NCBI RefSeq assembly: GCF_002197845.1
Contig: NZ_NIDE01000008.1
Coordinates: 186,001-250,000 of the forward strand
Reading direction: 5' to 3'
Source: Fimbriiglobus ruber
GTDB taxonomy: Bacteria; Planctomycetota; Planctomycetia; Gemmatales; Gemmataceae
Length of the DNA stretch: 64,000 nucleotides
The notes under the pieces are model-generated. The model ran no database searches. It was not told the origin of the DNA and saw only the letters and a list, made by a program, of their open reading frames with translations. This document shows, one piece after another, positions 1 through 18,512 of the stretch. Every line of letters starts with the position of its first letter. The first letter of the stretch is position 1. A program made the position numbers and the translations under genes.

Positions 1-3000
1 CGCCGTGAACGTGTACGGGGTCGGGCTCAACCCCGCCTGGGAGTCGGTGCTGGTCAGGGTGACCGTCCCGGTGAATCCGGCGTCCACGTTCCCGAACTGG
101 TCGAACACGGTGACGGTGAAGGCGGACGGGGTGCCGGCCGCGACCTGGGCGGGGAGGCCGGTCAGGGTCATTTGCACGCCCGCGGCCGCGGTGACGACGA
201 CGCCGCTCACGCTACCCGTGATGCCCGGGTTCACCGAGTCGGTCGCGGTCACCGTCTGGGTGCCGGCCGTCCCGAAGGTGACGGTGAAGGCGCCGACGCC
301 GGCGTCGGCGGACGAGAAGATGACCGTGGCCGGGTTGAACGTGGCCTTCGGGTCGGTGCTGGTCAGGGTGACGGTCCCGGTGTACCCGGTGGCCACGTTC
401 CCGAACGCGTCGCGGGCGATCACGGTGACCGTCTGGCCGGCCCCGGCGGTCACGAGCGTGGGCACGCCGGCGAGTTGGAAGGAGGCGGCCGGGGCCGGGA
501 CGACGACGATCCCGGTGTCGGCCCCGGAAACGGCCGGGTTAGCCGCGTCGGTCGCGGTGACCGATTGGGTGCCAACGGTCTCGAGGGTGACCCCGTTCAC
601 GAACGTGTGCGTCCCGGCGTCGGCGGCGGTGAAGGCGTAGCTCGCGGGCGCGATCTGGGCCTTGCCGTCGGTGCTGGTGAGGGCGACGGTCCCGGTAAAG
701 CCGGTGGCCACGTTCCCGTACGCGTCGAACGCCGTCGCGGTGACCGACCCCGGTACGCCAGCCACTTGCGGCGTCGGGAACCCGGTCAGTCGCAGGGAGG
801 TCGCGGTGGAAGCCGTGATCAGGATCCCGGTTTCGGTCCCCGTGACGGCGGAGTTCGCCCCGTCGGTGGCGGTGATCGACTGGGTGCCGGCGGTCTTGAG
901 GACGGCCCCGTTGGTGAACGTGTGGACCCCGGCGTCGGCGGCCGTGAAGGCGTAGCTCGTTGGGGTGAATTGGGCCTGCGGGTCCGAGCTGGATAGCAGT
1001 ACGGTCCCGTTGTACCCGGTCGCCACGTTCCCGTAGATGTCGTAGGCCGTTGCGGTAAACGAGCCCGGCGTACCGGCCACCTGCGGCGAGGGGAACCCGG
1101 CCAGCCTGAAGGACGCGGCGAAAGCCGGGGTCACGAGGATACCGGAGTCCGTCCCCGTGACGAACCGGTTGTTCGCGTCGGTGGCGGTGATCGACTGGAT
1201 ACCGGCCGTCCGGAGGGTGACCCCGTTGGTGAACGTGTGGGCTCCGGCGTCGGCGCCCGTGAACGTGTAGCGGGCGGGGTTGATCAGGGCTTGTGGGTCG
1301 CTGCTCGAGAGGATGACGGTCCCGGTGTACCCGGTGGCGACGTTCCCGTACGGGTCGTACAGCGTCGCCGTCACCGACCCCGGGGTCCCGGCCACCTGGG
1401 GGGTGGGGTACCCGGCCAGCTTAAGGGTCGAGGCCGCCGCCGCGGTGACGACGATCCGGCATCCGTCCCGGCGATACTCGGGGTGACCGTGTCGGTCGCC
1501 GTAATCGACTGGGTACCGGCCGTCCGGAGGGTGGCCCCGTTCTTGAACGTGTGGACGCCGGCGTCGGCGGCCGTGAACGCGTAGCTCGCCGGGGCGAACG
1601 ACGCCTGCTTGTCCGTGCTGGTCAGGGTGACCGTCCCGGTGTACCCGGTGGCCACGTTCCCGTAGGGATCGAACGCCGTCGCGGTGAACGACCCGGAGTA
1701 GCCCGCCACCTGGGGCGTGGGGTACCCGGTTAACTTGAGGGACGCGGCGGCCGCCGGGGTGACCACGATGCCGGCGTCGGTCCCCGTGATCGTCGCGTTG
1801 GCCGAGTCGGTGGCGGTGATCGACTGGGTGCCGGCCGTCTTGAGGGTCGCCCCGTTCACGAACGTGTGGACGCCGGCGTCGGTACCCGTGAACGCGTAGC
1901 TCACCGGGGCGAACGACGCCTGCGGGTCCGAACTGGTGAAGGTGACGATGCCGGTGTACCCGGTGGCGACGTTCCCGTACGGGTCGTACAGCGTCGCCGT
2001 TACCGTCCCGGGGGTGCCGGCCACTTGGGGCGTGGGGAACCCGGTCAACTGCAACGACTTGGCGGCCGCCGGGGTGACCACGATGCCGGCGTCGGTCCCC
2101 GGGGTCAACGCGTCGGGGGTGTCGGTGACGGTGATCGACTGGGTGCCGGCCGTCCGGAGGGTGACTCCGTTGGTAAACTTGTGAACCCCCGCGTCGGCGG
2201 CCGTGAACGCATAGCTCGACGCGACGAACGACGCCTGCGGGTCGGTACTCGTGAGCGTGACGGTCCCGGTAAAGCCGGTGGCCACGTTCCCGAACTGGTC
2301 GAACGCCGTCGCGGTGACCGTCCCGGGGGTGCCGGCCACCTGGGGGGAGGGGAACCCGGCCAACTGCAACGACTGGGCCGCCGCCGCGGTCACCACGATG
2401 CCGGTTTCGGTACCCGTGATGCTCGGGGTGGTCGTGTCGGTCGCGGTGATCGTCTGGGTGCCGGCCGTGTCGAGGGTGGCGGTGAACGTCGCCGAATCGT
2501 TGTCCGACGCCTGGAACGTGTACGGCGTCGGGGTGATCGTGCCCTTCGAGTCCGTGGTCGTCAGGGCGACCGTGCCGGTGTACGCGGGAGACGGCAGCAG
2601 GTTCCCGTAGGCGTCCACGGCCGTAACCGTGAACGTGTGGCTGACGCCGGCGATCGTGTTGGGGAACCCGGACACGACGAAGGCCGCCGGCGTGGACGCG
2701 GTGACCGTGACCGGGAGGTTGCCGCTGATCTTGTCGGCCGCGTCCGTCCCGGTGATCGTCTGGGCGCCGGCGGTGAACAGGGTCGCGCCGTTCGTGAACG
2801 TGTGCGTCCCGTTGTCGGCGGCCGTAAACGCATACGTGAGCGGGGAGAACGTCGCCTTCGAGTCCGTGCTACTGAGCGTGACGTTCCCAGTGGCCGCGTT
2901 CCCGTACGGGTCGAGCAGGGTCGCCGTGAACGTGTACGGCGAACCGGCGACCGTCGAATTCGAAGTCGCCGAGAGGGTCAACTGGGACGCGGCCGCGGCG

Positions 3001-6000
3001 GTGACCACGATGCCGCCTTCCGTGCCCGTGATGGTCGCGTTGGCCGAATCGGTCGCGGTGATCGACTGGGTGCCGGCCGTCTTGAGGGTCGCGCCGTTGG
3101 TGACCGTGTGCGAACCGGTGCCCGAACCCGGGAAGGTGTACGACGTGGGGCGAACGACGCCTGAACGTCGGTACTGGTGAAGACCACCGTTCCCGTGTAA
3201 GCGGGCGTCAGGTTGCCGAACTTGTCGAAGGCCGACACGGTGAACGAGTGGGCGACCCCGGCCACCGTCGGGGTCGGGAACCCGGCGACGGTCAGGGTCG
3301 ACGTGGCGGCCGGGGTGACCTGAATGCCCGTCGCGGACCCGAGGATCTTGTCGGCCGTGTCGGTGGCGGTGATCGACCAGGTGCCGACTTTCGTCAGCGT
3401 CGCGCCGTCGTTGGCCGCCGCGCTGAAGACGTGGACACCATCGTCGAAGCCGGCGCCGACGCCGCTGGTGAATGTGTAGGACGTCGGGAGTGTGGTCTGG
3501 GTGCCGGGGTCGGTGGTGGTGAACGTCACCGTTCCCGTGAACCCGATCGCGGTGTTGCCGTACTTATCTTTCGCCGTGACCACCACGTCGTGATCCGTGC
3601 CGGCGACGACCGAGGACGGGTAGGACACGGTGAACGTCACGGCCGTCCCGGGGACGACGACGATCCCGTTGGAGGTGCCGGTCAGCGGGCCGGCCGGAAC
3701 CGGCGGGGTCGGCGGCGGCTCGGGGATCACCGGGGTGGTCGTCGCGGCGTCGGTCGCGGTGATCGTCTGGGCCGGGTAGTCGATGGCCACCGTCGGGGCC
3801 GACGTGTACCCGATGCCCGGGTTCGTCACGACGATGCCCGTTATGATGTTTCCGAGTTTCGTGGTCCCGCTGGCCCCGGACCCGCCGCCGCCCGTGATGG
3901 TCACAGTCGGGGCGGACGCGTACCCGGTCCCGTTGGTTAGGAGGGTGAACCCGGTCACCTGCCCGCCGGAGATGATCGCGGTTGCGGTCGCCCCGGTGCC
4001 GCCGCCGCCCGTAATAGTCACGGTCGGCGTCGAGGTGTACCCGGACCCGGCGTTCGTCAGGGTAATCGATTGGACCGGATGGCTCGCGACCGCGGTCGCC
4101 CCGGTGCCGCCGCCGCCCGTAATGATCACGTTCGGGTTCGTGGTGTACCCGGACCCGGCGTTCGTCAGGGTAATCGGGCCGACCCCGGTGCCTGTCAGTG
4201 CCGCGGTCGCGGTCGCCTGGACACCGGTGGTGGCGAACGTCACCCCGTCGACGAACGTGTGCGTCCCGTTGTCGAACCCGCTCCCGGTCCCGCTGGTGAA
4301 CGTGTACGACGCCGGGGCGAACGCGGCCTTGGTGTCCGAACTCGTGAAGACGGGCGTCCCGGTGTACGAGGTCGCCACGTTGCCGAAGTGGTCGACGGCC
4401 GTGACCGTGAAGGTGGTCGCCGCGCCGGCCTGGACCTGGTCGGCGATCACGACGGTCGGCGCGACGGTGTACCCGGTCCCCGGGTTCGTCACCGTGATTC
4501 CCGTGACGACGCCCGCCGGACTGACGGACGCGACGGCGGTCGCCCCGGTCCCGCCGCCGCCGGTGATGTAAACGGTCGGGACGACTTCGTAGCCGCTGCC
4601 GCCGGTCGTGAGGTTGATCGCCCCCACCCCGGTACCGGCCAGGGTGGCGGTGGCCGCCGCGGGCGTGGCCGGCGGCGTCGTGGTCGGCTCGCCGACCAGG
4701 AACTGGCTGGCGGCCGCGGCGTTCACGGTGAGGAACGCCTTCGCGTCGGCCATCTGGTTCGAGGTGTTGTGGACGTCGAGCCACGTCTGCGACGTGACCG
4801 GCGGGGCGGACGCCTTCTCGAACGTCACCGAGAAGACGTGGACGCCTTGGTCCGCGGCGGTGAAGGTGTAGCTCGCGGGCAAGCCGGCCGCCGCCAGGAT
4901 CGGGTCGGGCGACGAGCCGGGGGTGGTCAGGTACGGGTCGGACGTCGTGAAGGTGACGGTGCCGGTGAAATTCGTGAGCGGGAGCCCGGTGTTCGGGTCT
5001 TCGGCGGTGACCACCACGCGGACCGGCTGCCCGGCGATGGTGACGTCGGGCATGTCGATGAACAGGTTCCCGGTCGTCGTCGTGGTCGAGGCCGGGGGCG
5101 CGGGGATGTTGACGTACCCGTGGTACGAGTCGGCCGAGTACCCGAGGTCGCCGTTCGCGGGGGTGGCGCCGTTGTTCGGGTCGGGCGCGGCCTCGCCGTT
5201 GGTGCTGTTCCCGTTCTGGTTCATCGGGAACCCGGCGTAGTCCGAGATGAACGTCCCCGGGTAGTCGATCGTCACGGTCGGGGTGGACGTGTACCCGGAG
5301 CCGGGGTTCGTCACAGTAATGGCGGTTACGGCGCCGTTCAAGAACGACGCGACCGCGGTGGCCCCGGTCCCCCCGCCGCCGGTGATCGTGACGTTCGGGG
5401 CGACCTTGTACCCGCTGCCGCCGGACGCCACGGCGATCGCGCTGACGCCGCCGCCCGCGGTCGTCGCCGTCGCCAACGCGAGGGAGGCGTTGGTCTCGTC
5501 TTGCCCGATCACGACTTCGAGCGGGCCCGCCACCGCGTCGGGCGTGTACACGATCTGGAACAGGTCGTGGTAGTCGCTCGGGGCGACGGGGATCGCCGAC
5601 TGACCCGTCGGGCCGACGGTGTCGACGATCGGGGTCACGCTATCGACCGTCAGCGCGTTGCCGTCCGCGTCGGTGAGTTGAATGTTCCCGGTCGTGAACG
5701 TGGTCGCGAGGACCGGCGAACTGAACTGGACGTCGAGCGTGTTGGCCTGGGTGTCGTCGACCGTGACGCCGATGACGCGGGGGCCGGACTGGGCGACCGC
5801 CTGGTCCGGCGCGATCGCGGCGGCGACCGGGTCGGTCTGGGGGGTGCCGAGGCGAATGACCCACGTGCCGCGGCCGTAGGTGTACGCCGTGAGCAGGTCC
5901 AGCCCGCCGGTCGATTGGACCGGGAGGCCGGTACTCGGGTCGATGTTCCCGAGCGACAGCTGGATCTGGGTGACCAGGGCGTCGGTCATGTTCCCGCCGG

Positions 6001-9000
6001 CCCCGATGGCGTATTGCGACGTCTGGCCGGTCGTCGGGTCGGTGTACGTGTAGGTCGAGGCGGCCGGGTAGAGCGACCACGTCTTGCCGTTGTCGACGGA
6101 ACGGAAGACGCCGCCTTGTCCGCCGACGTACAGGACCGGGAACGTGGTCCCGGGGTTGGTCGTACTCGGGATCGCGTACCGCCAGTCGGCGGCGATGGTC
6201 GTGAGGTTCTGGAGGGCCGCGGTGAACGACCCGGCGGACCCGGTGTTGGCGTCGCCGAAGATCGATTTCTGGAGGGTGAACAGGTTGCCCGAGATGGGAA
6301 TCCACGTGGGGTTCGCGGCCGACGAATTGGGCATGAAGAACACGCCGGTCGTGGTCACGGCGTATGCGTCGTGGCTGCCGTGAACCGGGTCGGTGACGAT
6401 TTGCTGAACGGCGCTTCCGTCGAGTCCGGCGGAAATATTGATCCAGTTCGTACCGCCGCCGCCGGTGAAGGATACGTAGATATCCCCGTTGCTGGTTCCG
6501 TTGTAGATGAAGTTGTCGAGCTGGTTCGGATTCGTGGGGCTCGGTGCCCCGTACGCGGAGGCCGTCGAGGTTCCGTTGAAGGCGTTGGTTCCGGAACCGC
6601 CCGTCGTCTGGTTCCAGATCTGTCCGAGGTTCGTTGTCAGGAACAGGGTCGAAGTCGTCTCGGACCCGATTGCGACGGCGTTGGGATCGATCGGGTTGAC
6701 CGTGAACCGGTTGCCGCCGACGTACGCCCAGTTGCCGGTGCTGGTGTACGGGTTGTCCGTGGGTTGGACGAGTCCGAGGCCGAGGGAGCCCACTTCGCCG
6801 CCGGCGGGTCCGGCGAGCAGGAACTCGGTCGGGGCTGGCGCGCCGCAGCAGGGCCACTTGAAGACGTAGTCGTTCCCGTTCCCGGTTTGGGCCGTCTGGA
6901 CCCCGGTCGCGTCGCCCGTACTCCCGCTGAAGCTCAGGAGTCCGGTCGAACTCCCCTCCCCGGTCTGGAGGACGTTCGCGTTCGAGAACCCGAACCCGTC
7001 GTCCTGGGCCCCGCCGTAGAACATCGCGTCGTTGATTTCCGCCGCGAGCTGGCTCGGTTGGGTCGCCCCCTGGTAATACTGGATGGTCTGGAGGTTGCCG
7101 TTGCGGACGTTACCCGGGAGCGCGGTGGACCCGAGACTCGTCACGGTGTTCCCGTTGGCGTCGACGACCGCACTCCCCACGCCCTGGTCGTCCCCGACGA
7201 TCAGGCGGGTGAGGCCCGTGAGCGGGTCGACGATGGCGACGATCCGGTGGACGTCGGTGGCGACTTCCACGCCGCTGACCGGCATCCACGTCGCCCCCGT
7301 CCCGGTGTTCTCGAAGCTGGACACGTTCGAGAAGTCCAGTTCGGACGCGCCGAACGGGTCGGCCGGGTTGTGGTAGACGTTCAGCAGGCCGGTGTTCGTC
7401 GTGTAGATCCCGTTCACGCCGTACGCCTGGCCCGCCCCCAACATGGCGCCGCTGTTCAATGAGTTGGGGTTCGTGACCGTGCCGCCGCCCGAGAGGGCGA
7501 CCCCGCCGGTGGTGGCGAACTGCGCGCCCCCGGACGTGAGACTATTGTCGTACGCCACCATCGCCTGGGCGTCGAAGATCCCGGTGGTGTCGACGCGGAT
7601 GAGGCCGGTGCCCGTTTGCGCGCCGTCGTTGCTCCCCCCGATGTAGACCACGTTCGGATTCGTCGGGTCGATCGTCATGGCCACGTCGTAGTTGCCCTGA
7701 GTACCGAAAGGCACGGCGCCGAACGGGTTCAACTGTCCCTGCGTGTAATCGTTGGTCCCGTAGCTGTATCCCACCTTGGGTGTGTAGGCGGCGAGGTTGA
7801 CTTTCGTCCAGTTGGCGCCGCCGTCCTTGGTCAGGTACAAGCCCTGGAGGGTGCCCTGGAGGGAGACGACGAGGGCGTACAACCACCCCTGGTAATTCAG
7901 GTTCTCGAACGCGTTCGACGTCAAGTCCGGGGTCGCGAGGACGATCCGCCCGAAATCTCCGTTCGGGCTCACGTTGTTGGTCGCGAGGCCGACCTGGACG
8001 GGCGCGGTCGCGTCGTTGTTGACGTAGCTCCCGTTCACGAACGGCGACGCGTTCCCGGCCATCAGGGTCATGCTGTTCTGGACGGGGGCGTTGAAGTCGG
8101 CGTAGACCCCCTGGCCCTCGAACGCGGCGTACAGGGTGGTCAGCTGGCCGCCGGTCCCCGCGCTCCCGGCGGCGAGTACGATGTCGGTCGCGATCCCGCC
8201 CTGAATTTGGGTCCAGTGCAAGCCCGAGTCGGTACTCCGCCAGACGCCGATTTCGGCGGTCGCCCCCAGGCCGCCGGCTAAATACACGATCGCGTTTCCG
8301 CTCGCCGTCAGGGTCGGGTCGACGATAATCTTGTATCCGAATCCGCCATTGAATACGTGGTCGCGGGTCGAGGCGGAGATCGCGGAGACGGCCAAGCCGG
8401 TCGGGTCCGTGGCGTCCGCGTTGTTTGAACTGTCGAGAACAGTCCACGTCCGCCCGCCGTCCAGCGACCGGAGGACGCCAACCCCCGGAGTGCTGGCGAA
8501 GCCCGGGCCGTTACCCTCGCCGGTCATGGCGAAAATCATGGACTGGTTGGGGTCATCGTTCCGGCCGACCACCGCAATAGAGGCGATGTTCAGGCTGAAG
8601 GCCGGACCGTTGTCGGTCAGCGGGATCCAGGTCGGGCCGTTCGGATCTGTGGTCAGGAAGTCGGTCGTCTTCCAGATGCCGCCGCTGGCGGCGCCGATGT
8701 AAACGGTATTCCCGGACGGGTCGGACGGGTCGACCGCGATGGCGGTCGTCCGGGCCGTTGTGGAGTCCGCCCCGTAGTCCGGGGCCGGGCCGACGGGGGT
8801 CCAGGTTTGCTGGCTGAGCGGGTCGGTCGGGTTCTGGTTGAACACGCGGAACGGGACGGTGAACGCGTCGGCGGTCGGCTCGCCCAACCCGCTCCCGGTG
8901 GTGATGTACGGCAGGGTGAGCGACCACTTGGTCAGACTCGGCGTCTCGGCCCCGGTGTTCGTGATCCGCAGGACCCACGTACCGCTCGCCTGCTTGCCGT

Positions 9001-12000
9001 TGAGGACGTCGAGCGGGAACTGCGGGTTGTACGGCCCCTTGTCGAACGGCTGGACCGCCGCGTTACTCGTGATCGGGGTGACCCCGTTGTCCTCGAACGT
9101 GGTGTTGCTGAACCACAGCGTGCCGCCGGGCTGTTTCGAGTTGCCGGCGTTTTCGAACAGGCGGATCGTCGTCCCGTCCGGGGCGACCAGATCGGCGATC
9201 AACTGGCCGACGTCGTTCGAATCGGCCACCGTGTTGCTGATGTTGACCTGCACCTGAATCTGGTTCGGGTGCTGCGGGTTCGCGTCCACGTTGATGAGGA
9301 AGTTGTCGGGGACGGCGATTGGGAATTCGACCACCCCCGGGACCGACCCGGACGCGGCCGGGATGGTGGCCGAGGGGTTCGAACTGCCACTAAAGGCGGC
9401 CGAGTACGAGTTGTGGGCGTCCACCCCGGTCGCGACGTTGGTCGCCTGGGTCAGGTTGTCTACCCCGGCGTTCAAGTTGGTGTCCACCAACTCGGGTTCC
9501 GTCCCCGTCCCCGCCGGGTTCGGCAGGGTCGTCTGTGCGGCGAACAGCGGGTCCACCTGGATCGAGTACGACCCGCTCAAAATTTGCGTCGGGAATGTGA
9601 TCTGGAAGGTCGTCAGAGGAACGATCGTGATGACCGGTGGGAATTTGTACCCGGACCCGGGGCTGGTGACGGTGATCCCGGTGATCTGGCCGTTAACGAC
9701 GAGGGCCGTGGCGGTCGCGCCGACCCCAGTCGTGTCCCCCGGGGCCCGGGTGATGGACACCAAGACGGGCTGTGCGATGACCGCCAGCGCCGACGCACCG
9801 GACCCCCCCGGCGTATCGGGGTCGAAGATGGTAATGGTCGGGGCAGAGGTGTACCCCGACCCGCCGGCCGTGATCGCGATTCCCGTAATGACGCCGCTGG
9901 CCGAAATGATGGGCGTACCCGCCGCACCCGTCCCACCCCCGCCCGAGAAGAAGACTTCGGTGAACTGCGAGTACTTGGACCCGCCGTTCACCATCACGAC
10001 GCTGCTCACGGGCCCGGCAACGGGACTGTACCCCGACCCCGGGTTGGTGACGGTGATGCCCGAAACTCCGCCGCCCGAAATCGACGCCGAGGCGGCCGCC
10101 CCGGTTCCCGTCGCCAGGGGGGTGACCGTGATCGGCACCGGGGTGATCGTCACAATCGGTGGGAGCGAGTATTTGGACCCGGGGTCGGTGATCGTGAACG
10201 AGCTGATCGTGCCGTTGTAAGCGACGACGGCGTTGGCGGTGGCCCCGCCCCCCGTGGTGTCCCCCAGGGCTGGGGTGATGGTGACCGTCACCTCGTCGTA
10301 ATTCGACCCGGGGGCGGTCACGGTGATGCCGGTGACCGCGCCGGTCACGGGGTCGATCGCGGCCGTGGCGGTGGCGCCGGAACCGGTGAACGCGGAAGCC
10401 GCGGTCGCGGTGCCAGTCGAACGGTCGTACAGAACGCCCGTCCCGTCGATGCCCGTACCACTCGGTCCGGTGATCCGGATGATGTCGGCCGCGTTGAACA
10501 CCGGGCCGGCCGCCGTGTTAGTGTTCATGAGCCGGTCGAAGGTCACGTTGAGCGTGTTGGCCCCGGTATTCAGGGCGAGGGTCGGGTCATTCGCCTGACC
10601 GTTCGTGAGGGCCGTGAGGTTGTCGAGGACGTGCGGCCCGGGAATGATCAGCGGCTGGGTGTTGGTGGTGTAAGGGGCACTGAAGGGAACCCCGTTCACC
10701 GGGGTCGGGATCGCGAATTGATCGACGCCGCTCGTTTCGTCAGTGATCGCATTCGCATTCTGATCCATTAGATTGTGGAGCGACAACCACTGCGTGGTCT
10801 GCACGGCCACCGACCACGAGGTCAGGGTGCCGGACCCAAAGCTCCAATCGTTAGTGATCTTCAGTTGCCAGTTGCCGATCGCGGTCGTCCCGTTCAGGGC
10901 GAGCAGATTTCCGTCGGGCTTGAACGTTCCGGTAAACGGCGGGGTTCCCGAGGCAATCGGTACGGTCGCGGTGGCGGTGAACGTCGTGTTGGTGAAGTTG
11001 TCGGCCGAACTCCCGGGCGGTTCATTGATCGACAGTGGAATCTGGGTGCCGTTCGGGGCGATCAGTGTGAGTACGAGTTGGTTCGCGGAGGGGAAAAATC
11101 CGCTCTGCGCGATATTCAGAGTGACCGTCACGGCCGTGATCGTTACCGAGGGAACGCTGGCCGGCACCGGGATCGTGGCGATCGTGACCGATGGCCCAGA
11201 CCCCGTTGCCGGCCCGTAAGCGGTCGCGCCGGACGATTCCGCGATGTAGCCCGATTTGAATGACTCGACGTCGTCGAGGATCCCGGGGCCGACGGCGTAG
11301 CTGTACGTCCCCACGGCAAACTGGGGTGTTTGCAGGTGGACGAGGACGTTCGTGGGGCCGTACGGGACGCCGGGGTGAGCCGGGTTCGTGTTCGGATTGT
11401 TCTGGTAAATGACCTCGACGGAACCCACCGGGATCGAGGTGGCGGCGACCGACAGGGAGGCGTACGGGTTGCGGTACTGAACCTGGAAAAGCTGCGACAG
11501 TTGCGCGACCGACATGGCGGCGAACTGGGTCGGGTCGATCGGGCGGTCGAACGTCACCACGAACGCATCGATCCCGCTCGTGCCGTCGGTGGCGATCGAG
11601 GTGTTGTACGTCTCGGATACGGCGTTCCCGAACTGGTCGAACCCGCTGACGGCCGACGGCCCGGTGACCGTACCCAGGTCGCCACTCACGACCCGCGGGC
11701 CGGCCGCGGTCTCGGCTTTCGCGGAAAAAATGCCGCTCCCGGCCGCGTCCGCGTTCCCGGTCCAATACGCGTAGATGATTCCGCCGGACGCGATGACCGA
11801 CTGCCGGATGCCGACGCCGTCCGCGCCGGCCAGGGGGATGTTGGTCGGGACCGGTTCCAAGGTGTAAGTGGTGTCCGAAACGATGTCTGTTGCCTGCTTC
11901 GGCTGGTTCAAGAACGGCGGCGGGGCGTTCTGCTCGAACGTCTGGGAGCTGAAGGTCTGGCCGCCGTCGATGCTGGTCGCGATGTAGGTCGCGGCGCGAG

Positions 12001-14743
12001 TCACGCTCGCGTCCAGGCGGGTGTCGTACCAGGTCACGATCAGCGTCCCGGTGGTCGAGTCCACCGTCAGCGACGGGATCAGCTGTTGGCGATTCCCTTC
12101 GCTAATGTCGTCGGTAATGCTGTCGTCATTCACCTGGACGGGGATGCCGGTGTTCCAGTTGATGCCCGCGCCCTGGATGGTGCCCGCCTCGACCTCAATG
12201 TTCGTGTCGGTGAGGACGCCGTTTTTCACGGTGGCCGAGGTGTAGCCTACGTAGAACTGCCCGGAGAACGGGCTGGCCGATCCGACCGAGGTGTCGAACC
12301 CGATCGTGACCGCGGACGGGATGCCGGCCGTCGGCTCGACGGCGAACTTTGTCAACGTGTTGCTTTGGAAACTCGGTCCGTTGGGCACCGACGTCGCGTT
12401 CGTAATCTGCTTGCCTTGTGCGTCGGTATTTTGGGTAGCCGTGTTAGGATTCAGGTTGGGCAGGGTCGCGTCAGTATTGAAACCAGAGGTCACGCCGGAC
12501 GTAAAATTGAGCGAGAAGCCGTTCAAATATTCGGGCGGAATCGGGTTCGTGGTATCGTGTCGGAAGTCGGTGATTGTGAGAACGTAGTTGCCCGCCAGTT
12601 GGGCCGGCGTATCGCCGTTGATCCCGAGTTGCTCCGCGATCGTGGTCCCGAGCGAGAGGTCTTCCGGCCGGTAAACGCCAATGTAGGGGAAAGTCGTGTT
12701 GAGGTCGTTGATCCGCCGCGGGCCGTTACTGTTGAAAACGGTGCTGGTTGCGGGTTGACCCACGATTGAGACGGTCGGGGCAAGGGTATACCCGGATCCG
12801 GGGTTCGTGATCGTGATCCCGGTAACGACACCGTTCGTAATGTTGGCGGTCGCGGTCGCCCCGGCCCCGGTCGTGTCCCCCGGGGCGGGGGTAATAATGA
12901 TTGTCGGCGGGACGAGGTATCCGAATCCCCCGTTGGTGACGGGGATGCTGGTCACCTCGCCGGTAGTCGGGCCGCCGAAACCGGCTACGAACGATGCTGT
13001 CGCAGTGGCGTTTGAACCCCCACCCCCGGTGATCGTTATGATCGGGGCTTTGGTGTACCCGCTGCCCGGATTGGTGATAACGATGCCGGTCACGTGCCCG
13101 TTATTGATTAGTGCGGTCGCGGTCGCCCCGGCCCCGGTGGTGTCCCCGACGGCGGGTGTAATGGTGACGGTCGGGGGCGTGGTGTAAAAGGAGCCGGTGT
13201 TCGTCACATTGATGGCGGTGAGTACGCCGGGGATCAGTGCGGTCGCGGTAGCCCCCGTCCCCGCCTGGAGATCATTGTTATCGACCCCGAGCCCCATCGC
13301 GACGTACGGGTTCGTGGGCGTGGCCGGGGGAGGGAGTACCCCAAAACTCAGTGTGTTCGTACCCGGGATGTTGCCCTTGGTCGTAGCATCTCCGTTCGTT
13401 TGATTTTCCAGTAACGTCACCGATTGACCGGTCGGTGCCGTCAGCTTGATCGATAATTGATCAAGGGATTGCGCCACGACCGCGAGGCTGATGGAGACGT
13501 CCGCCAGCGAGAAGTTCGGGTCGCTGAAACTCGCAGCACTGATGGGGAGTGTGAACGTTGTTACACTGGGGGTGTCGACAGTCGCGGGCGATACCGCGGC
13601 AATGGCGTCTTTAATCGGCGACGACGACTGCGGGTTGTTCCCGACGTTGTAGGGGACAATAACAACGCTCGCGGCGGAATGAGTCGCCGAGCCCGAGTCG
13701 GGCTGACTGACGTCGTAACTGATCGTCGAGTAGGCGGCGCCCGCGTCCATCGTGGGCCACACGAAAACGAGAGAACCAGGATTGGCCGATGAGGTGGGGC
13801 TGAAAGCAATCTGAGGCGCCGCCCCCTCGGCGACGCCGTTCGCGGTCGTGGCGGGAAGGTAGCCGCTGTCGCTAACCGGGACCGGTTCGGTCCACGTGCC
13901 GCCGTCGTTGCCGGACACGGCCGCGAGGATCGGGCTCGGGTTAAAGGTCAGACCCGAGCCGTTGAGGTCTCCAGCCGGGGCAGCCGAATCCCCCCCGTTC
14001 CAGGCGATGTAGATCGCCTTCGACTGGCCCGCCGCAGAGTCCATCGTGTCAGTTTGTGTTGTCGCCGTGGTCGGGTCGGTGAACGACGGGAGGTTATTGT
14101 CGACCGCGATGACCGGGTTATTCGCCGTGTCCTGACCGATCCACTGGTAGATCGTCGAGTACGACGAGTTGACCGCCCCGGACGCGAATGTTCCTTCCTG
14201 AAACACAACGGAGCCACTGGTCTTACCGATGTTGTGGACGAGGTAAACGAAATACAACTCCCCGTCCCGACCAAACGCGACAGAGATGTCAGAAGCGTAG
14301 GCGTAGGAATTTGGGGAGGTGAAAGAAGAAATGTTCGGGTCGCGAATAGACGTGAACCCGCCCAAGGGGCTCCCGGTCGTGTTTGTCCCGGCTTGAAATC
14401 CTGTAATGGCAGTCCACGTCACCCCTCCGTCAGTCGATTTCTCGGCAACAATTCCGAGGTCGGTGGGCGTGCTGTTGAGGACACTCGTCGCGACTAGAAC
14501 CTGATTGAGGGGATTGGTCGGGTCGGCCACGACCTGCGGGTTGATGAAGTTGACCGCCGCGGTAGACGGAAGCGCGACCGATGCCGTTGTCGCCGTGGGA
14601 GATACCACGGTTGGCGTCGGGAGAACCGCCGGCGCGAGCCGCTCTTCGATCGTTTCGAGATTCAGCAAGTACCGCTTCCTGCCGACGACTCGGGTCTTGA
14701 ACGCCATGTGTCGGAGAACTTCGGGAAGGGTGCGGCGAGACAT
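1..14743 (-). CDS. Giant secreted/surface multidomain protein (3' end outside window; two frameshifts)
   Basis: Start chosen at ATG 14743, which gives an N-terminus (MSRRTLPEVLRHMAFK...) leading into LETIEERLAPA at about residues 29-39. That is the short LE-x-x-E-x-R motif seen at the start of many large planctomycete exported proteins; a further in-frame ATG lies 120 bp upstream. Reading downstream: Asp-box repeats (KSTDGGVTW), three regions resembling proprotein-convertase P domains (roughly 13.6-12.4, 11.2-10.8 and 9.3-8.9 kb), a long sortilin/BNR-like propeller region (8.8-5.85 kb; IWKTTDF, GGVFRSVDNGKTW), then filamin/Ig-like repeats to the window edge. Many GSGYTxxPTVTITGGGG-type units are interspersed. 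More than 4,900 codons are visible. The frame is broken near 3147 and near 1455. Probably a cell-surface or matrix adhesin; no catalytic role can be assigned. Confidence 0.85.
1446..1470 (-). other. Frameshift 2 in the giant gene (one base missing)
   Basis: The phrase ACGATCCGGC is one base shorter than the equivalent ACGATGCCGG phrase in neighbouring repeats. The repeat sequence TLKLAGYPTPQVAGTPG continues leftwards only in the third frame, and that frame stays open to position 1. Confidence 0.8.
3138..3160 (-). other. Frameshift 1 in the giant gene (one base missing)
   Basis: Compared with the equivalent position of a sister repeat near 1580-1605, the stretch before GGCGAACGACGCC is one base shorter. 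Upstream of it the protein reads STDVQASFAP; downstream the repeat continues only in a different frame. Either a real mutation or a homopolymer assembly error in the GTGGGG run. Confidence 0.8.
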
Positions 14744-15455: not shown

Positions 15456-16901
15456 TCAGTCCGCCTGGTCGTCGTCTGCCCAGATCGAGCGGCCGATGGA
15501 GATGTTGAGGGCCCGGATTTTGTTCCGTAAACTGCCGCGCGTGATCCCCAGGATGCGGGCGGCCTGAACCTGATTGCCGTGCGTGTGCTGGAGAACGCGG
15601 AGGAGGACTTCCCGCTCCATCGCCGTTACCGCTTCCGCGTACAGGCTTTCGACGCCGGCCGCGATGCGCTGTTGGACGAAGTGGTCCCAGTCGAAGCCGC
15701 CCGTTGAGCCGGCGACCGGGACCGGCGCCGCGACCGTACCGAGGGCGGCGTTCAAATCCTGAGCGGTAATGACCGACCCGCGACTGTAGAGGATGGCCTT
15801 TTTTAGCGTACTCTGGAGTTCTCTCACATTCCCCGGCCAGGCGTGCCGCTGGAGCAGTTCGCGGCCGTCCGGCGCGAGACCCTGCACCGGTTTTTGCAGC
15901 TCGCGGGCGAACCGCCGCACGTAATGATCGGTGAGTAAGTCGACGTCGGCCCCCCGCTCCCGGAGCGGGGGTAAGCGGATCGTGAAGACGTTCAGGCGGA
16001 AGTACAGGTCTTTTCGGAATTGGTCCTGCTCGGTGAGCTGTTCGAGGTTGGCGTTCGTGGCCGCGATCAGCCGGACGTCGGTGCGGACCGTCTCGGACCC
16101 GCCGACCCGCTCGAACGTTTGATCCTGGAGCAGGCGCAAGACCTTGGCCTGGATCAGGGGTGACATGTCGCCGACTTCGTCGAGGAAAACCGTCCCGCCC
16201 GAACACTGCTCGAATTTACCGATGCGCTTGCGGTCCGCGCCGGTGTACGCGCCCTTCTCGTGCCCGAACAGCTCGCTCTCGAGCAACTGTTCGGGGATGG
16301 CCGCGCTGTTGATGGCGAGGAACGGTTTCTCGGCCCGGCGGCTGTGCTGGTAAATGGCGCGGGCGACCAGTTCCTTACCGGTGCCGGTCTCGCCGAGGAT
16401 GAGGACCGTCGCGTCGGTCGACGCGACGCGGCCGATGGCCTTGTACACCTCCTGCATGCCCGGGCCGCGGCCGATCAGGACGTCGGCCACGTCCGGGATC
16501 GGTTCCAGTTCGCCGAGTACCGCCGGGACGTGCATGAGCCGGCTCGTCTTGAACGCCTGGTCGACGACGTCGCGGAGCTGGGGGAGTTCGAGCGGCTTGG
16601 TGAGGTAATCGAACGCGCCGTGCTTGATCGCCTCGATCGCGAGGTCGCTCGTCCCGTGCCCGGTGATCAGGATCACCGGCGTCCGCGCGTCGGCGGCGCG
16701 GAGGCGGTGGAACGTCTGCAGGCCGGTCGCGTCCGAGAGGTGGACGTCCAGTACGATCACGTCCGGCTTGACCCGGCCGGCGGCCTCGACGGCCTCGGCC
16801 GCCGTCGACGCGGTGGCGAGTACGTACATCGGGTCGGCGAAGACCCGGCGGAACGCGTGAAGGATCGAAGACTCGTCGTCGACCACAAGAATTGTCGGCA
16901 T
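15456..16901 (-). CDS. Sigma-54-dependent response regulator, NtrC/AtoC family
   Basis: 481 aa with three domains. The receiver domain spans about 1-120, with acidic pair D8/D9, phospho-acceptor D52, T80 and K102. The AAA+ sigma-54 activator domain has Walker A GETGTGKE at 170-177, the sigma-54 contact loop GAYTGA at 217-222 (the Y variant of GAFTGA) and Walker B FLDEVGD ending at 245. A Fis-type helix-turn-helix lies near 440-470 (NQVQAARILGITRGSLRNKI). It would activate sigma-54 promoters when phosphorylated. It lies 123 bp downstream of the histidine kinase on the same strand, so the two probably form one operon and a cognate pair. The regulon is unknown; the giant surface-protein gene is the next gene downstream in the same direction. 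Confidence 0.95.
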   Translation of the reverse strand: MPTILVVDDESSILHAFRRVFADPMYVLATASTAAEAVEAAGRVKPDVIVLDVHLSDATGLQTFHRLRAADARTPVILITGHGTSDLAIEAIKHGAFDYLTKPLELPQLRDVVDQAFKTSRLMHVPAVLGELEPIPDVADVLIGRGPGMQEVYKAIGRVASTDATVLILGETGTGKELVARAIYQHSRRAEKPFLAINSAAIPEQLLESELFGHEKGAYTGADRKRIGKFEQCSGGTVFLDEVGDMSPLIQAKVLRLLQDQTFERVGGSETVRTDVRLIAATNANLEQLTEQDQFRKDLYFRLNVFTIRLPPLRERGADVDLLTDHYVRRFARELQKPVQGLAPDGRELLQRHAWPGNVRELQSTLKKAILYSRGSVITAQDLNAALGTVAAPVPVAGSTGGFDWDHFVQQRIAAGVESLYAEAVTAMEREVLLRVLQHTHGNQVQAARILGITRGSLRNKIRALNISIGRSIWADDDQAD

Positions 16902-17024
16902 GACCGGAAGACCAATGGGAGGAGGGGCGTCGACCGAGTTCCCACGATACCGGGGGGTGGGAGGTGAACGCGGCGCGTTAAACCGGGGCGCCGGACCGGG
17001 CGTGTTCTCCCTAGAGAAGAGTAG

Positions 17025-18512
17025 TTACCTTCCGCCGGAGGTCGTAACCGGCCGCGGTTCCTGGCCCGCCGGCGCGGCCTGTTCGGGGGGAAGGTCGACG
17101 GTAAACCGCGCGCCGCCGGGATCGTTCGCCGCCTCCAGCGTGCCGCCGTGGTCTTCGACGATCCGGCGGGAGATGACGAGCCCCAGCCCGAGCCCCGTCT
17201 CCTTACCACTGACGAAGGGCTGGAACAGGCGCGGGAACAGGTCCGGGGCGATCCCGGGGCCGGTGTCGGAGACGTCGACCCGGGCGGCCCCGGCGGCGCA
17301 GGAGCGGAGGGCGACGCGGAGGGTGCCCCCTGTCGGCATCGCGTCCAGGGCGTTGAGCGCGAGGTTCACGAGTACCTGCCGCAGCTGTTCGGCGTCCGCC
17401 GTATACACGAGCGGCACCGGCGGGCGGTCGAACTGGACGTCCACCCCCTGCTTGGCGGCCCGCCCGCGGACCAGCCCGAGCGTGTGGTCGATCAGCCCGA
17501 TCAGGTCGACCGGCGATCGCTCCGTCTTGGGCGGGCGGGCGAAATCGAGGAACGTCTTGAGTGACCGTTCCATCCGGCGGATTTCGATCTCGATGACGTC
17601 CAGATCCTCGGCCGCGAGTGGGGAGCGGTCCCGGTCCGCCTGCCCGACCTGGACGAGCATTTTAATCGCCGTCAGGGGGTTCCGGATTTCGTGGGCGACG
17701 CCGGCCGCGAGTTGCCCGACGGCCGCGAGTTGTTCGGCCCGGAGGACTTCCCGGTCGCGTTGCTGGAGTTGCTCGACGACTTCGCTGACCTGGGCGACGA
17801 GCTGTTCCATTTCCTCTTGAAGGTCGGCGAAATGGCCCTCGCCGGAAACGACGATCTCGGGCCCCCCGCGGGGGAGTTTGCCGGCGGCGTCGCGGACCTG
17901 GACCTGGAGCCGGCGGATCGACTGGCGGACGCCCTGCGAGACCCCGTACCCGAGGACCAGCCCGGCCACGCCGCCGGTCACGCCGATGGCCGCCATGCCC
18001 CACGCGAGAACCCGCAGGATGCGCTGGTGTTCGCGGGCACTTTCTTCGAGCCGGTTGTTATTGTAGTCGACGAGCGCCTGGCAGCGGGGGAGCGTTTCTT
18101 TCTCCAGCACTTCGGCCGCGAGGTGGACCGCGCCGACCCGGGCCGGCGATTGGTCCGTCGGTAGGCGTTCCCAGAGGAGGCGGTATTTGTGAAAGCTGGT
18201 CGTGACCTGGTCGGTCAGGTCTCGCTCCCGGTCGTTGTCCGCGAATTTGCGGAGCGTCCCGAGGTGCATCTCGATCCGCGAATGCAAGCCGACCACCCGC
18301 TCGCCCTGGTCGAAGAGGATCAGCTGCAAGTCGGTCAGATTCTCCCGCAACTCGGCCGCGGTCCGCCCGCTCCCGAAGTTCTCGCGCAAGACTTCCGCCA
18401 TGCTTTCTTGCTGGCGGAAGAGCGACATGGCCATGAGTGCGCAGACGCCGACCAGAACCCCGCTCGAGAGGAGAGAAGCAAAGAGCAAGCGGCGCGGTAT
18501 CCTGTCAGTCAT
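17025..18512 (-). CDS. Membrane sensor histidine kinase, NtrB-like
   Basis: Start set at ATG 18512 (MTDRIPRRLLFASLLSS), because the longer frame begins with an arginine-rich, non-homologous stretch; 495 aa. TM1 covers about 9-30. A helical extracytoplasmic sensor region of about 135 residues follows, then TM2 at about 168-190, a HAMP-like linker and a glutamine/glutamate-rich coiled coil at 230-258. The HisKA motif AAGVAHEIRNPL has the phospho-histidine at H274. The ATPase domain has the N box LVNLALNALDAMP and the G boxes DTGPGIA and GLGLGLVISRRIVEDHGG. It should phosphorylate the NtrC-like regulator encoded next. The signal sensed cannot be told from sequence. Confidence 0.94.
   Translation of the reverse strand: MTDRIPRRLLFASLLSSGVLVGVCALMAMSLFRQQESMAEVLRENFGSGRTAAELRENLTDLQLILFDQGERVVGLHSRIEMHLGTLRKFADNDRERDLTDQVTTSFHKYRLLWERLPTDQSPARVGAVHLAAEVLEKETLPRCQALVDYNNNRLEESAREHQRILRVLAWGMAAIGVTGGVAGLVLGYGVSQGVRQSIRRLQVQVRDAAGKLPRGGPEIVVSGEGHFADLQEEMEQLVAQVSEVVEQLQQRDREVLRAEQLAAVGQLAAGVAHEIRNPLTAIKMLVQVGQADRDRSPLAAEDLDVIEIEIRRMERSLKTFLDFARPPKTERSPVDLIGLIDHTLGLVRGRAAKQGVDVQFDRPPVPLVYTADAEQLRQVLVNLALNALDAMPTGGTLRVALRSCAAGAARVDVSDTGPGIAPDLFPRLFQPFVSGKETGLGLGLVISRRIVEDHGGTLEAANDPGGARFTVDLPPEQAAPAGQEPRPVTTSGGR

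Follow-up and report, generated by a model that had tools for sequence, protein, structure and literature searches.

The window, the whole 64,000-nucleotide stretch of DNA that was analysed, corresponds to C8:186001-250000 in the 12.36-Mb genome of Fimbriiglobus ruber. Its left end is occupied by a giant surface-protein gene on the minus strand, gene A, which covers window positions 1..14743 and continues to C8:184567 when homology is read across frames. The gene starts at window position 14743, and its protein begins MSRRTLPEV. The first open frame runs to a stop at 2978 and has left the repeat register before its end; homology resumes in a second frame with a stop at 1371, and a third frame leaves the left end of the window and stops ~1.4 kb outside it. 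The two frame breaks, at approximately 3100..3180 and 1395..1470 (both on the minus strand), may be either sequencing errors or real. An earlier note on this DNA had described one chain of at least 4,900 residues. As sequenced, no such intact chain exists, the gene being split by two breaks over three frames, but a single long chain is a plausible ancestral design, and translation across both breaks gives a product of 5,392 aa. Upstream of gene A and on the same strand, a sigma-54-type response regulator and a histidine kinase, both recognized by eye, lie at window positions 15456-17300.

The next gene downstream of A is a tandem paralogue, gene B (C8:169549-184217, or L009:3549-18217; 4,889 aa), which also has one frame break. 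The two proteins are 72% identical over 4,691 aligned residues and differ by eight indels of at least 30 aa, of which five are stretches of GSGYT repeats and three are single Ig repeats. Over their final ~700 nt, the two genes share 95-100% DNA identity. Because these ends are so much closer than the 72% identity of the proteins overall, the tandem copies seem to recombine, likely by gene conversion.

Domain architecture of gene A

All features of A lie on the minus strand. The N-terminal region (14567..14743), recognized in the sequence by the motif LETIEERLAP, may resemble a planctomycete-type N terminus. It is followed by the first part of an N-terminal BNR-like propeller (13574..14566; drawn by eye and conserved in the family), by P domain 1 (12473..13573; assigned from the three Pfam stretches in the protein and from homologues that align on either side), which is split by a GSGYT cassette, and by the second part of the propeller (11684..12472; by eye). 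The Pfam model P_proprotein (PF01483) matches three stretches of A (E 1.6e-23; 83 bits, the cut-off being 21), which bears out the three convertase-like P domains of the earlier note. Pfam coordinates were used for the best stretch alone, P domain 2 (10808..11131, protein positions 1245-1352), and P domain 3 was placed by eye, at approximately 8834..9406. A large propeller region, which a family profile likens to GH74/BNR proteins, extends over 5789..8821; it holds a GSGYT pair in B and none in A. Positions 1..3781 are filled by Ig/filamin-like repeats of ~105 aa each, visible in the DNA as a ~315-bp repeat array.

Propeller regions of BNR type are present, as had been claimed, but the accompanying sortilin/VPS10 label is unsupported. 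Pfam gave no sortilin match to A, and its BNR match was below the cut-off. The family profile of the second, large propeller matched eight distinct PDB sequences at E<=0.001 (E 6.9e-10 to 4.1e-4; partial matches, the best stretches covering ~40-125 of 979 profile positions), which were GH74-type glucanases/xyloglucanases and a BNR hydrolase, and none of the eight was named sortilin. The repeat array likewise consists of Ig-like units, but the Pfam filamin model (PF00630) scored 20.8 bits, under its cut-off of 26.9, and 'filamin-like Ig repeat' is the safer name. Other Pfam and NCBIfam matches of A (Tli3, DUF3164, SodC and others) were weak; the one to DUF3164, within the Ig repeats, exceeded its cut-off, at 26.5 bits over 28 residues. 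The mixture of domains that had been regarded as an unusual architecture for one chain does exist, but it is common to a family of giant proteins in the Gemmataceae, and the frames of A are broken.

Positions of the GSGYT cassettes

Gene A carries 16 GSGYT-type units by motif and two degenerate ones recognized by eye, distributed over five sites. Each unit has about 38 residues and units occur as pairs of ~75 aa; all 11 arrays in A, B and the homologue G116a hold even numbers of units (counted by eye, with the two degenerate units included). Site 1, with four units (aa 493-664; 12752..13267), lies in P domain 1 and splits it, and the other sites lie between domains; the units are thus found both inside and between other domains, as first noticed. 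Site 2 (9623..10387) holds three pairs by eye, two of the units being degenerate, and relative to B one of its pairs is nested in another; both sites were delimited by motif, profile and alignment. Site 4 (aa 3085-3159; 5267..5491; profile and alignment) and site 5 (aa 3358-3433; 4445..4672; profile) contain one pair each, and site 6, among the Ig-like repeats, contains two (aa 3506-3654; 3782..4228; motif and profile). Cassettes occupy sites 2, 4, 5 and 6 in A as well as in B. The GSGYT profile was built on 14 pairs, one irregular pair of A being omitted, and degenerate units can escape a scan with it.

Cassette-free relatives in the Gemmataceae

A query of aa 41-914 from the window matched 24 of 95 family genomes, a count that takes in our own; in seven (G016, G021, G094, G096, G104, G109 and G110) the match was through the GSGYT part. 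The 16 others yielded 18 homologous ORFs, among them that of the complete Limnoglobus roseus PX52 genome. Their products, from L. roseus and from MAGs, form with A and B a family of giant surface proteins with homologous propellers, P domains and Ig repeats, but the profile found no GSGYT unit in 17 of the 18 ORFs, the one from L. roseus among them, and none in a further C-terminal fragment, G112a2. The exception, G116a, holds a single pair, at a position where A and B have none. The scan left out the second ORF of L075 and a fragment of L069, which match A weakly. Two side observations concern this family. G112a (L060 2601-17745) also appears split in two overlapping ORFs; breaks or splits therefore recur in the family. 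The record JAIXLE010000197.1 (L182), titled as a Bacteroidales MAG, contains a Gemmataceae-type giant gene; a contig equal to it in length and match, G022:C95, is assigned to the Gemmataceae, and the title of the record looks wrong.

A, B and 16 homologues were placed in a multiple alignment, from which the partial ORFs G089 and G090 and the fragment G112a2 were left out. Across the family, the edges of sites 1-4 can be aligned with no GSGYT cassette between them. The cassette at site 1 is present in A only, being absent from B and from all 16 aligned homologues; the pair at site 3, within the large propeller, is present in B only, being absent from A and again from all 16. Because of these one-sided absences, the two insertions would most simply have been gained after the tandem duplication, site 1 in A and site 3 in B. 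At sites 2 and 4, GSGYT units are confined to A and B within the aligned set, their absence elsewhere coming from the profile scan; G112a has an unrelated insert at site 4, where G012 aligns poorly. The possibility that the units are integral to the fold in all homologues, which the earlier note had set against its own reading, is contradicted by B and the 16 homologues that lack site 1 and by the 17 of 18 ORFs that are free of units.

On these alignments, GSGYT insertion in the giant gene looks like the derived state. The opposite polarity, in which the family ancestor had GSGYT units at all sites and clean loss was repeated, draws on the ability of recombination to remove repeat DNA and on sites 2, 4, 5 and 6 being filled in both A and B. 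It would, however, require many exact in-frame losses to leave 17 of the 18 ORFs from the 16 genomes free of units, it leaves the only pair of G116a at a site that A and B do not use, and a transporter unrelated to the giant genes shows the same one-sided pattern; we regard such a history as very unlikely.

GSGYT modules in other cellular proteins

In the own genome, where 150 of 200 first-look candidates were scored, 29 GSGYT matches were found; A and B account for 18 of them, and 11 are in other places. All 29 sit in open frames with no internal stop, and no non-coding copy was found among them, in a protein-profile search that favours coding copies. Among their hosts, named by eye apart from the Pfam hits N_methyl and Big_3_5, are a prepilin-like protein, phage-like ORFs, an SdrD-like protein and a beta-helix protein. 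GSGYT was detected in 17 of 95 family genomes (E<=1e-6), in 10 of 59 relatives (E<=1e-3) and in 14 of 294 phylum genomes (E<=1e-8), the own genome being counted each time; two other genomes of the same genus, which are 86-87% complete, gave no match. Across these genomes, hosts identified by Pfam are Nuc_H_symport, Cu-oxidase_2, RCC1 (an RCC1-repeat protein in G380) and N_methyl prepilin proteins.

The cleanest case of insertion outside the giant genes, judged from sequence comparison, is the transporter, an MFS nucleoside symporter with a four-unit cassette in G004 and G094 (75% identical). Homologues occur in 39 of 95 family genomes (E<=1e-30), and a single match spans the cassette only in G004 and G094; in four relatives of 61-67% identity, both flanks match with 0-3 nt between them. 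Among 12 aligned MFS ORFs, two have the cassette, nine have nothing there and one (G014) has a short unrelated insert. This insert and that of G112a at site 4 indicate that such loops also take other inserts, the loop position of cassettes being derived from alignments.

Multicopper oxidases with GSGYT units were found in two genomes. In G128:C25, two oxidase-like paralogues (L157 and L170) each have an internal pair, and the G386 oxidase (L162) has a six-unit array elsewhere in the protein and, by eye, a short loop where G128 has its cassette; L157 and L162 were covered by the Pfam run. The prepilin cassette (C4:890624) is only suggestive as an insertion: homologues occur in 58 of 95 genomes, the own genome included, and the matches cover mostly the two flanks, but a few of them enter the cassette.

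Occurrence in phages and viruses

Searched alone, two cassettes matched 21 PHROG families each at E<=1, and 11 and 16 at E<=1e-3, with best E values of 6e-14 and 2e-12; 18 of the 21 matched families belong to head, connector or tail classes. In viral contigs, at least 459 GSGYT stretches were confirmed among 600 pattern matches listed, and all 80 retained viral loci contain GSGYT ORFs. Of the eight viral ORFs scanned, three are head-closure proteins Hc2; a virion structural protein and a major tail protein account for one each, and the other three match several kinds of virion protein. The major tail protein has a pair inside it (L154, IMGVR_UViG_2667527211_000002), and the best segment of this locus is 73% identical to the query, the top of the 80 viral loci listed. 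The protein aligns with phrog_158 from 28 to 269 in the protein and from 14 to 163 in the profile, so that the cassette, at aa 135-202, can be accommodated. By profile and fold, the same unit is present in proteins of PHROGs 460 (head closure Hc2), 701 (virion structural), 708 and 2885 (baseplate wedge) and 158 (major tail), and there, too, GSGYT is an extra module within or beside different proteins. The difference lies in the hosts, which on the cellular side are a giant surface protein, a transporter, oxidases and a prepilin.

When 129 cassettes were compared (94 viral and 12 from other bacteria; BLAST without composition correction), 15 of the 16 A/B cassettes were nearest to a cassette of A, B or C1:1027712 and not to phage, and the transporter cassette of G004 was nearest to viral ones. 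No donor copy was identified for the A/B cassettes. They may have been copied locally by recombination after an entry that was possibly from phage.

Fold of the GSGYT pair

Structure prediction by segments, which the earlier note had proposed, gave a confident model of the pair as a module of its own: AlphaFold2 folded residues 3078-3166 of A, with 71 alignment rows, into two times three strands (pLDDT 88.8, pTM 0.75), and the pattern G..Y..P is conserved across the 71 rows. The model of P domain 1 together with its cassette was poor, with a low mean pLDDT of 49.6. In BFVD, the pair had 38 matches at E<=1e-3; TM by query length reached 0.83, and the best matches included neck and structural proteins of cyanophages. 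Foldseek gave no PDB match to the model at E<=1e-3, and the best Z of 4.4 in a VIA comparison with 239 chains was not counted as a structural relationship. The sole PDB sequence match at E<=1e-3 was a phage tailspike depolymerase, Dpo31/Dpo36 (PDB 28lx, 28mg and 8ck1; residues 442-505); the match is weak (E 2.9e-4) and Foldseek adds no PDB support at that threshold. No Pfam or NCBIfam model matched the module. A literature search with the unit peptides found nothing on them; among the matches listed, TGATATAT was the only term with a hit.

The units are rich in glycine, threonine and alanine, and the tblastn search of a phage collection with one cassette returned no match, perhaps owing to its low-complexity filter. 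Both observations would fit GC-rich coding repeats that resemble each other by chance and grow by slippage. Such an artefact is, however, already contradicted by the G..Y..P pattern over 71 rows, by the confident fold and by hits both to viral contigs and to other families within the phylum, and its probability is close to negligible.

Several bacterial hosts resemble surface or secreted proteins when judged by eye, and the phage hosts are virion proteins; together with the tailspike depolymerase as the only PDB chain matched in sequence at E<=1e-3, this raises the possibility that the cassettes were selected as binding domains, as in an adhesin. Against this, the transporter cassette falls, by eye, in the loop that joins TM6 to TM7, which in known MFS proteins is on the cytoplasmic side, the cassettes in the oxidases and the major tail protein hint at no one ligand shared by all, and no binding residues were identified. 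We consider selection for binding conceivable but doubtful.

DNA around the cassettes

The earlier note had suggested that a mobile coding repeat had spread through the gene. At the protein level this agrees with in-frame cassettes in unrelated cellular proteins and in virion proteins, but the DNA-level signatures of a mobile element were not found. No inverted repeats of at least 12 nt surround site 1, and none of the five inverted repeats in the MFS stretch flanks the cassette. At three junctions inspected for target-site duplication, the longest word shared by the flanks was reached in 758, 1000 and 594 of 1000 shuffles. In the 40 best matches listed, A/B cassettes are about 69-85% identical in DNA; none of the 16 is a near-identical copy of another, so no recent transfer was seen. 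A transposon-like origin was rejected for the sites tested on these three grounds.

Rickettsia palindromic elements are short coding repeats inserted in frame in unrelated genes. GSGYT resembles them in its in-frame position in unrelated genes and in its absence from homologues, but differs in that no palindrome, non-coding copy or near-identical copies were found. A dedicated mobile coding element of that kind, with GSGYT DNA moved by its own or borrowed transposition machinery, would account for the in-frame insertions in unrelated genes and for the patchiness of the module, which occurs in 17 of 95 family genomes and 14 of 294 phylum genomes. The absence of inverted repeats flanking site 1 or the MFS cassette, the shared flank words within shuffle expectation at the three junctions, the lack of near-identical copies in A and B and the open frames around all 29 matches in the own genome speak against it, and we hold it to be quite improbable. 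With all 29 matches in open frames, and with neither repeats around the cassettes, nor duplicated target sites, nor near-identical copies seen, recombination of a protein domain, and not a transposon, is suggested as the route.

Discussion

GSGYT is a common, apparently uncurated virion-associated module that acts as a guest domain. We propose that the pair is a self-contained guest domain, frequent in virion proteins of tailed phages and inserted in frame in loops of unrelated host proteins. In this bacterium it would have entered a pre-existing family of giant surface proteins, where it came to occupy six sites in two tandem paralogues, and its pairs would then have multiplied locally, one pair landing inside another. 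Its coding DNA would most likely have spread by gene conversion and by recombination, either illegitimate or helped by homology, copies being retained only where the frame remains open. The pattern of presence and absence, the in-frame position, the diversity of hosts and the occurrence in phages are observed; recombination as the route, phage as the source and the function are inferred. The likely effect is that exposed loops are enlarged by a stable beta module, in a way that would be near neutral or modestly adhesive. Taken as a whole, with a phage-frequent module, in-frame entry, local copying and recombination in place of a transposon, this explanation is probably correct. A bolder version, in which GSGYT is a protein-coding element that travels between phage virions and cellular genes by a dedicated in-frame route and enters any permissive loop, whether in giant surface proteins or in membrane transporters, appears unlikely.

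The guest domain may be compared with the Ig-like domains on phage structural proteins, which are a promiscuous beta module found on many virion proteins. GSGYT is likewise a promiscuous beta module, but its sequence differs, it interrupts domains of cellular proteins and it has no Pfam match. Promiscuous inserted domains are thus a known kind; the GSGYT family and its directional gains in cellular genes appear to be new within our searches of Pfam, NCBIfam and the literature.

The direction of an insertion in the middle of a domain is usually hard to polarise, and here it is given by the paralogue pair, by the cassette-free homologues and by a transporter with and without the module. Gains of such clear direction make the route of in-frame domain insertion testable. 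The abundance of the module in viruses, with no Pfam or NCBIfam model to describe it, points to an annotation gap and to a possible traffic of virion parts to cellular genes.
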